A stretch of 64,000 bases of DNA from Stagnimonas sp. Lineage in GTDB: Bacteria > Pseudomonadota > Gammaproteobacteria > Nevskiales > Nevskiaceae. Under the pieces are notes generated by a model. The model was given only the letters and a program-made list of their open reading frames with translations, was not told the DNA's origin and did not search any database. Below are positions 51,886-54,606 of this stretch, in pieces. Position 1 is the stretch's first letter. The number at the start of each line of letters is the position of its first letter. Position numbers and translations under genes: made by a program. The stretch lies in assembly GCA_030696045.1 (NCBI GenBank), contig JAUYNO010000067.1, positions 19,093-83,092 of the forward strand. Reading direction: 5' to 3'.

Positions 51886-54606
51886 GTGAACGAGCTCACG
51901 AAAACGGGAGCCGCAGCCAGCAGCGAAGCCCCCAGCCGGGCGCAACGCTGGCTGTTCGCCGACTGCGTGCTCGACGGTCTCAGCCTGGAACTGACGGTGC
52001 GCGGCCAGCAGGTGAAGCTGGAGCCAAAACCCCTGGAAATGCTGATGTTCCTGCTGCGCCACCCGGGCGAGGTGGTGACCAAGGACGAATTGCACGAGGG
52101 CCTCTGGCCGGGCCGTTTCCTGTCGGAGTCGGTGCTGACCAAGTGCATCGCCAAGCTGCGCCAGGGGCTCGGCGACGAGGACCAGGCCATCATCAAGACC
52201 GTGCACGGCTACGGCTACCGGCTGCTGGCGCCGGTCACCGTCGAGGCCGCCTCGGCGCTGCCGCCGAGTTCGGGCCTGGCGGCGGGCGACCATCCGCCAC
52301 AGCGGCCGCTGTGGCGCCTGCAGGAGCGGCTCGGCGCCGGTGGTTATGGCGAGGCCTGGCTCGCCAGCCACAGCAAGACCGGCGAGCGGCGGGTGTTCAA
52401 GTTCGCCCACGACGCCGGCGGCCTGACCGCGCTCAAGCGCGAGATCACCCTGTTCCGTTTATTGCAGGCCACCCATGGCACGCGCCTGGACTTCGTCCGC
52501 CTGCTCGACTGGAACCTGGAGGAATTGCCCTACTTCATCGAGGCCGAGCACGTCGCCGGCGGCGATCTGCCGCACTGGGCCGAGCAGCAGGGCGGCCTCG
52601 CCGCCGTGCCGCTGGCGCGCCGGCTGGCGCTGGCGACCCAGCTGGCCGATGCCCTGGCCGCCGCCCACGCCGCCGGGGTGCTGCACAAAGACCTGAAGCC
52701 GAGCAATGTCCTGGTCGATACCGAGGAGACGGAGCCGCGGATCAAGCTGGGCGACTTCGGCAGCGGGCGCCTGCTGGACCTGGCGAGGCTGGAGCGGCTG
52801 GAGATCACCCGGCTCGGCTTCACCGCGCTCGACCCCGATGCCGAGGGCGGCACGCCCCTGTACCTGGCGCCGGAACTGCTGGCCGGCCAGCAGCCGACGG
52901 TGCAATCGGACATCTACGCGCTGGGGGTGATCCTCTACCAGCTGCTCGCCGCCGACTGGCGCCGGCCGCTGGCGCCGGGCTGGGAGCAGAGCCTGGACGA
53001 CGAGCTGCTGCGCGAGGACGTCGCCGCTGCCGCCGCCGGCAATCCGGCGCAGCGCCTGTCCAGCGCCGCCGAACTGGGCCGGCGCCTGCGCTTCCTGGAC
53101 GAGCGCCGCGAGCGCCGGCGCGCGCAGCGTCAGGCCGAGTCCGAAGCCAGCCAGCTGCGCGCGGCCCTAGAGCGCAACCGGAGTCGCCGGCGCCAGCTGC
53201 GGGCGCTGGCGGCGGTGCTGGTGCTGGGACTTGGGTTCAGCAGTTGGGGTTTCTGGAATGCCCGCCAGGCGCAGCGGCGGGCCGAGGCAGCGGCGGCCGA
53301 GGCCAAGGCGGCCGTGGCCTTTCTCAGCGAGGACGTGCTCGCCGCCACCGACCCCTTCGGCGGCGGCCGACCGACCCTGAGTATCAAGGGCCTGCTGGAC
53401 GAGGCCGCGCCGCGCCTGCGTGAGCGCCTGGCCGACTACCCGGCCATGCGGGCACGGATGGGTCTGGCCATGGGTCGCGCCTACGAGGGCCTGGGCGACT
53501 GGATCAAGGCGCGCGAGCGCCTGGAGACCGCGCTCGCCGAAGCCGAGGCCAGCCTCGGCGTCGAAGCCGAACTGAGTCTGGCGATCGCCGACCGGCTCGG
53601 CTACGTCGCCATGCTGCAGAGCCGCTACGACGAGTCGGAGCGCATCTACCAGCGCGTCTACACACTGCGCCGGAAAATGCTCGGCGAGCGCCACGTCGAT
53701 ACGCTGTCCGCCCGCGATGGCCTGGCCTGGCTCGAATACGAGCGCGGCCATTTCGGGGTGGCCGCGCACCGCTACGAGCAACTGGTGCGCGACTATCGCG
53801 GCGTCGACGCCATCGGCCTCACCAGCGCCCAATGGAGTCTGGCCGACTGCTACCTGGAGCAGAACCGCAGCACCGAGGCCGAACGCCTGATGCGCGAGGT
53901 GATCGCCAGCACCACCCGGCTGCAGGGCGCGGAGCACCCGCGCACCCTCTGGCAGCAGAACACCCTGGGCGACGCGCTGATGAGCCAGGCGCGCTTCGAT
54001 GAAGCGGCCGCGGTGTTCGATCAGGCCTACCAGGGTCTGGCGAAGACCGTCGGCGAACTGCACCCCTATACGCTGACCGCCCTGCACTACCGGGGTCAGC
54101 TGCTGCTGGAGCGCGGCGATCCGGTTGCCGCCCTGCCCCTGCTGCGCCGCGCCTACGACAACCGCGTCCAAGCCCACGGTGCCGATCACGTCTGGGCCCG
54201 CTATTCCGCCAACCGGGTCGGCGAGGCGCTGACCCAGCTCGGGCTGGCCGGCGAGGCGCTACCGCTGCTGGAGCAAACCTACCGCCAGGGCCTGCGGGCC
54301 CAGGGCCCGGGCCATCCCAATACCCTGCTGATCCTGCGCAACCTGGCCGAGGCGCAGCTGGCCCTCGGCCAGCTGGCGCGCGCCGAACCGCTGTTGGTCG
54401 AGGGGCTGGCGGCCGGCCAGCGCAGCCTACCGCCGGACAACCTGCGGCTCGGCTATCTGCACGAGAGCCTGGGCCATCTGCGCCAGCTGCAGCGCCGCGC
54501 GGCCGAGGCGCGGGCCGAGTACCGCCAGGCCCAGGCCATCTTCGTCAAGGCCCTGGGCGAGGCGCATCCGCGCAGCCGGCGTCTGCTGTCCCAGTTGCGC
54601 CCCTAA
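51886..54606 (+). CDS. Winged-helix (Trans_reg_C) - Ser/Thr kinase - TM - TPR regulator
   Basis: VKLEPKPLEMLMFLLRHPGEVVTKDELHEGLWPG...VHGYGYRLL; LGAGGYGEAW, LHKDLKPSNVL, DFGSGRLL, YLAPELL; TM then KLC-like TPRs. Confidence 0.9.
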   Translation: MNELTKTGAAASSEAPSRAQRWLFADCVLDGLSLELTVRGQQVKLEPKPLEMLMFLLRHPGEVVTKDELHEGLWPGRFLSESVLTKCIAKLRQGLGDEDQAIIKTVHGYGYRLLAPVTVEAASALPPSSGLAAGDHPPQRPLWRLQERLGAGGYGEAWLASHSKTGERRVFKFAHDAGGLTALKREITLFRLLQATHGTRLDFVRLLDWNLEELPYFIEAEHVAGGDLPHWAEQQGGLAAVPLARRLALATQLADALAAAHAAGVLHKDLKPSNVLVDTEETEPRIKLGDFGSGRLLDLARLERLEITRLGFTALDPDAEGGTPLYLAPELLAGQQPTVQSDIYALGVILYQLLAADWRRPLAPGWEQSLDDELLREDVAAAAAGNPAQRLSSAAELGRRLRFLDERRERRRAQRQAESEASQLRAALERNRSRRRQLRALAAVLVLGLGFSSWGFWNARQAQRRAEAAAAEAKAAVAFLSEDVLAATDPFGGGRPTLSIKGLLDEAAPRLRERLADYPAMRARMGLAMGRAYEGLGDWIKARERLETALAEAEASLGVEAELSLAIADRLGYVAMLQSRYDESERIYQRVYTLRRKMLGERHVDTLSARDGLAWLEYERGHFGVAAHRYEQLVRDYRGVDAIGLTSAQWSLADCYLEQNRSTEAERLMREVIASTTRLQGAEHPRTLWQQNTLGDALMSQARFDEAAAVFDQAYQGLAKTVGELHPYTLTALHYRGQLLLERGDPVAALPLLRRAYDNRVQAHGADHVWARYSANRVGEALTQLGLAGEALPLLEQTYRQGLRAQGPGHPNTLLILRNLAEAQLALGQLARAEPLLVEGLAAGQRSLPPDNLRLGYLHESLGHLRQLQRRAAEARAEYRQAQAIFVKALGEAHPRSRRLLSQLRP

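Follow-up and report, generated by a model that had tools for sequence, protein, structure and literature searches.

A probable membrane-tethered, kinase-containing transcription activator encoded beside exported-protein genes in Stagnimonas sp.

The gene at 51886..54606 (+) of a 64,000-nucleotide stretch of Stagnimonas sp. (contig JAUYNO010000067.1; hereafter the window) encodes a winged-helix/Ser-Thr kinase/tetratricopeptide repeat (TPR) protein with resemblances to several described systems. Regulators of the CadC/ToxR type control adjacent genes; their OmpR-type winged helix lies at the N terminus in the cytoplasm, a single membrane segment follows, and a periplasmic sensor forms the C terminus. 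The window protein is predicted to share this plan, but a full kinase stands between its DNA-binding domain and the membrane, and its sensor is a superhelix of TPRs like those of kinesin light chain (KLC). PknT-EcfP of Vibrio parahaemolyticus and PknS-EcfK of Xanthomonas citri are kinase-sigma pairs of the ECF43 (extracytoplasmic function sigma factor) type (PMC8999054, PMC13147305). They too use a receptor-type Hanks kinase for the control of transcription, but there it phosphorylates a separate sigma factor, whereas the window protein carries kinase and transcription factor in one chain. In AfsK-AfsR and PknH-EmbR the kinase acts on an OmpR-type winged-helix regulator, and AfsR also carries TPRs (PMC1262709); these are, however, two separate proteins, and their SARP regulators carry a BTAD domain, while the Pfam scan of the window protein detected no BTAD domain after the winged helix and no receiver domain of the kind that marks two-component response regulators. 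YabT of Bacillus subtilis is likewise a transmembrane Hanks kinase binding DNA, but it does so through a Lys/Arg-rich segment, it has neither a winged helix nor a sensor domain, and DNA activates its kinase (PMC3708118). Receptor kinases with a kinase, one transmembrane segment and a TPR array show the same order of parts, and bacterial kinase-TPR proteins are listed in the survey of Krupa & Srinivasan; the listed proteins have no N-terminal winged helix, and the terms "winged", "DNA-binding" and "helix-turn-helix" are absent from that survey. Literal-term searches of the open-licence literature returned no paper describing the winged helix-kinase-TPR combination or its operator. Each part is known by itself, and the combination is best seen as a variation on receptor kinases and membrane-tethered one-component regulators.

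We suggest that the protein is probably a membrane-tethered, kinase-containing transcription activator of the adjacent exported-protein genes. The domains, the family, the conservation of catalytic residues, the operator array, the promoter spacing and the candidate target genes were computed. An array of 11-bp repeats and a conserved divergent operon for exported proteins and a secretin, neither of which was covered by an earlier sequence-only reading of the locus, say more about the function than the domains do.

The protein belongs to a real and largely undescribed family, for which 73 members were aligned. Three full-length orthologs, 73-75% identical, were found, one each in a genome of Hydrocarboniphaga effusa and in two related assemblies from metagenomes, and two further full-length copies (44% and 39% identity) are present in the window genome itself; a one-off fusion or a misassembly was rejected on the basis of the three orthologs and the many paralogs. 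Members are present in 27 of 61 related genomes (own included), with a maximum of nine per genome. Members thin out beyond the order, with 4 of 369 genomes in a class sample and 6 of 399 in a phylum sample (own genome counted in both), 15 of 150 in a denser sample of one other order and 1 of 240 in one other class, so that the architecture recurs sparsely elsewhere in Pseudomonadota. No member was found in the plasmid collection. The earlier reading had put the emphasis on the fusion; its three-part architecture stands, but it is not a singular case, since the family is lineage-expanded. The genes of the relatives were called by a small codon-usage script rather than taken from curated annotation, and start codons there may be off.

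The intergenic region 51711-51885, named earlier for an electrophoretic mobility shift assay, does hold a specific candidate binding site. This candidate operator at 51819..51858 (+) consists of the tandem direct repeats AACTCCTGACC GAGTTCCGACC GTTTCCCGACC and a partial fourth unit, GTTTGCG. It is well established that winged helices of the OmpR/PhoB type use direct repeats with a period of 11 bp, and the window array has this geometry, being tandem, direct and of about 11-bp period. Aligned intergenic regions of the window and the three orthologs carry three or four 11-bp units with the core CCGACC, and in all four a spacing of exactly 22 bp separates the array from a -10-like YTAGC element that reads toward the divergent operon (in the window CTAGCGT, 51797..51803 (-), 22 nt from the array edge). 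No consensus sigma-70 promoter was found near the array. With up to 3 mismatches, the array was found once in its own 4.28-Mb genome (reversed-pattern control, 0). The whole module of array, 22 bp and YTAGC was detected in 5 of 61 genomes, namely the four ortholog genomes and one more (G033), where it lies just upstream of that genome's own family member; the reversed-pattern control gave 0 throughout.

H. effusa and a Hydrocarboniphaga assembly (G031) each have one additional, unlinked copy of the module, and the genes after these copies are orthologous, their signal-peptide proteins sharing 46.6% identity across the first ~240 residues. The ATG is 85 nt from the array start in both, with the same orientation and spacing as at the regulator. 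That the module turns up again at a promoter remote from the regulator is, of all the observations, the best indication of an array that directs transcription toward genes for exported proteins. The two unlinked copies (L145, 884-938; L153, G035 C2 916331-916385) each precede a Gly/Ser/Asp-rich exported-protein gene.

Since the window is where the pattern was first spotted, the orthologs of the window gene count as discovery data, and the paralogs and held-out loci constitute the test. Upstream intergenic regions were scored for tandem matches with periods of 8-14 against dinucleotide shuffles, and the enrichment was confined to period 11, which was present in 23/67 members against 10/200 control regions (Fisher 7.6e-9). 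When the members were clustered at 65% identity, the period-11 array was present in 11 of 33 clusters versus 10/200 controls (Fisher P 1.2e-5), and in 10 of the 21 divergent clusters. The repeat-unit consensus, about gTTTCCTGAcG, contains 6.67 bits versus 4.37 +/- 0.15 in column-permuted controls. Among 24 upstream regions from other lineages, unused for the motif, the three-unit model gave p<0.02 in 7 (combined P 5e-4), and only period 11 had a combined P <0.05 (0.032).

The regulator gene is divergent from the operon 47011-51710 (all on the minus strand), which encodes exported proteins and ends in a TPR-containing secretin; all five genes score as exported by a simple signal-peptide heuristic. 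The first divergent gene encodes a 187-aa protein (51147..51710, family c31) with a syntenic homologue in L047, and the second a low-complexity protein of 394 aa (49868..51052, family c35), whose homologue stands first among the divergent genes in L048. A DUF1559-like protein follows (49247..49819, Pfam SBP_bac_10/DUF1559; the start is uncertain, with an ATG at 49837). DUF1559 proteins normally have a DG motif near the C terminus; in the reading frame 49247-49837 (-), next to a secretin, we observed four spaced DGSSNT motifs. The last two genes encode a small Cys-rich exported protein (48734..49237, family c2), with homologues in all ortholog operons, and the secretin with a lipoprotein-like N terminus (47011..48708, family c7; Pfam Secretin E 6.9e-21), syntenic in four ortholog loci. 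The secretin and the small Cys-rich exported proteins are retained at 4/4 ortholog loci, while the other operon genes vary. This solitary secretin with an N-terminal TPR region and lipoprotein-like signal is possibly a dedicated export channel. Family-wide, the divergent neighbours are exported in 19 of 40 cases versus 48 of 172 controls (P 0.015, same heuristic).

The neighbourhoods of paralogs have features of their own. At L070 three tandem members alternate with exported proteins of about 99 aa that consist of NGL-type pentapeptide-like repeats (LNGLSLNGLSLNGL). At L011, L059, L077, L106 and L121 the divergent or upstream neighbours have GlyGly-CTERM/IPTL-CTERM-like tails (a hydrophobic stretch, then RRRR), which suggests surface sorting.

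The architecture proposed from the sequence alone, with Trans_reg_C, kinase, hydrophobic helix and KLC-like TPRs in one chain, was confirmed by the open reading frame call (GTG start, 906 aa), Pfam and hydropathy; the Trans_reg_C, Pkinase and TPR_12 matches all exceed the Pfam curated cut-offs. The OmpR/CadC-type winged helix (residues 40-113, 52003..52224 (+); Trans_reg_C E 1.8e-16) matches the CadC structure 5ju7 (E 7.6e-13) in a sequence search of the PDB, and its strand-helix-hairpin order is visible, at low confidence, in the AlphaFold2 (AF2) model. The junction with the kinase contains the motif GDxPPxRPxWxL (residues 134-145, 52285..52320 (+)), of which G134, P138, R140 and L145 are >85% conserved in the family alignment. 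The linker is short, with the span of residues 118-145 having 25-34 aa across the family, and together with the conserved motif this hints that the two domains are coupled in a fixed way and not loosely tethered.

The Hanks-type kinase domain (residues 145-356, 52318..52953 (+); Pkinase E 1.4e-27) sits between the DNA-binding domain and the membrane segment, and it matches solved Hanks-type kinases. The G-loop, HKDLKPSN, DFG and APE motifs noticed earlier are all present: an intact glycine loop (LGAGGYGE), K172, E186, HKDLKPSN (267-274, with N274), DFG (290-292) and APE (328-330). The HRD triad reads HKD, and this lysine is a family signature (71/73). K172 and E186 are invariant (73/73), and D269, N274 and D290 are each conserved in 72/73. 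In the activation segment T308, T313 and T323 are Ser/Thr in 93-99% of members; T338 is conserved in 100%. The conservation of these residues predicts that the kinase is kept catalytically competent by selection. Many paralogs retain every catalytic residue despite lost glycines of the nucleotide-binding loop.

A single hydrophobic, putatively membrane-spanning segment follows (residues 438-460, 53197..53265 (+)). Its top 19-mer begins at residue 438 with a moderate Kyte-Doolittle value of 1.59, and a comparable segment is present in 70/73 members. The 20-aa flanks have a net charge of +3.6 before versus +0.6 after the segment, and the N side is the more positive in 70/73. This asymmetry predicts an N-in/C-out topology, with the winged helix and kinase cytoplasmic and the TPRs periplasmic. 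The TPR superhelix (residues about 500-902, 53383..54591 (+)) has four TPR_12 stretches (E 3.1e-43) and about nine repeats, and their KLC-like character was recovered both by sequence match to solved structures and by fold, since Foldseek with the AF2 model returned KLC TPR structures, e.g. 5oj8 (TMt 0.79). The model was built from only four similar sequences; its pLDDT confidence is about 80-94 across most of residues 540-890 and mostly 25-70 for the winged helix and kinase, and we therefore make no claim on the relative placement of these two. Mean pairwise identity in the family is 48% for the winged helix, 51% for the kinase and 19% for the TPR region, as one would expect if the output is conserved while the sensors diverge.

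Within the activator reading we infer the topology and the ligand, and also that this protein itself binds the DNA, that it activates transcription instead of repressing it and that phosphorylation acts as the switch; the kinase control of DNA binding and what the TPRs sense, which the earlier reading proposed to be an envelope state, belong to the same model. The periplasmic TPR superhelix would bind a ligand, perhaps a peptide or a segment of an exported protein, as KLC-type TPRs do. The bound ligand would pair the kinase domains, leading to autophosphorylation in trans; T308/T313/T323 of the activation segment are conserved. In the resulting state the rigidly linked winged helices would be brought together and occupy the direct repeats cooperatively. 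The cytoplasmic winged helix would thereby bind the tandem repeats 51819-51858 beside the divergent promoter and turn on the exported-protein and secretin operon 47011-51710, and in two relatives also the unlinked exported-protein gene. Functionally, the protein would do in one chain what the PknT-EcfP and PknS-EcfK cascades do with two, its fused DNA-binding domain replacing the phosphorylated sigma factor. No ECF43 or other sigma gene was seen adjoining the regulator in the window or the three ortholog loci. Elsewhere in the same genome (L013, 4713-8229, contig C77) an ECF sigma gene with a TTA-type region 2.2 in place of the usual DAED is followed by a kinase-TPR gene; these likely form an ECF43-type phosphorylation pair, in the gene arrangement of the PknT-EcfP and PknS-EcfK systems.

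Several observations weigh against the activator reading, which is weakest at phosphorylation and at the ligand. Many members have a degenerate Gly-rich loop (all three glycines kept in 24/73, none in 10/73), and in the family alignment the winged helix has no family-specific conserved Ser/Thr, T65 and T105 being what we take to be generic OmpR-fold positions. These same two observations favour a regulator of the CadC/ToxR type whose kinase fold serves only as a scaffold or as an ATP-responsive dimerisation module, so that TPR-driven dimerisation controls DNA binding and phosphorylation is irrelevant; ToxR and CadC indeed work without a kinase. We consider this unlikely, as the catalytic K, E, D and N and the DFG Asp are kept in 72-73 of 73 members, the activation-segment threonines in >90%, and the glycine loop is intact in the window protein. 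Such conservation is difficult to explain without catalysis.

On the DNA side, an array was detected for 20/40 divergent and 3/27 tandem members, which leaves about half of the former and most of the latter without a detectable one, the fixed 22-bp spacing to the -10-like element was not seen in distant paralogs, the recognition region and the repeat sequence showed no detectable co-variation (P 0.2, non-redundant), and exported neighbours are modestly enriched. Regulators of the OmpR/PhoB type share the 11-bp direct-repeat geometry, and the array might be the operator of another OmpR-family protein, e.g. a response regulator, with the kinase protein merely a target. This seems to us very unlikely: the module occurs only in genomes with an ortholog and in the one genome where it adjoins that genome's own member, its own genome has a single site, and arrays of differing sequence adjoin other family members, also in another class. 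The flow could also be reversed, with the winged helix parking the kinase at a promoter, or DNA activating it, and RNA polymerase, a sigma factor or an envelope protein as substrates; several substrates are common for bacterial Ser/Thr kinases (PMC13147305). We regard this as quite unlikely, since a sequence-specific array at a fixed distance from a -10-like element resembles transcription control, and the DNA-binding region of YabT is a Lys/Arg-rich segment and not a winged helix.

More tentatively than the activator role itself, and as a possibility we would not favour outright, the family may constitute a lineage-expanded class of one-protein phospho-signalling, in which a self-phosphorylating kinase-transcription factor binds an 11-bp operator and a periplasmic peptide-sensing TPR domain is coupled to exported-protein and secretin genes, possibly as export feedback. 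Bacterial Ser/Thr receptor kinases usually act on numerous proteins, and assigning transcriptional outputs to them is difficult. With kinase and transcription factor in one chain, and with a predicted operator and target operon, the ligand, phosphorylation and promoter output become testable in a single protein. The family, with up to nine copies per genome, one kinase kept and the sensor diversified, would provide a ready-made collection of membrane receptors that may be orthogonal to one another.
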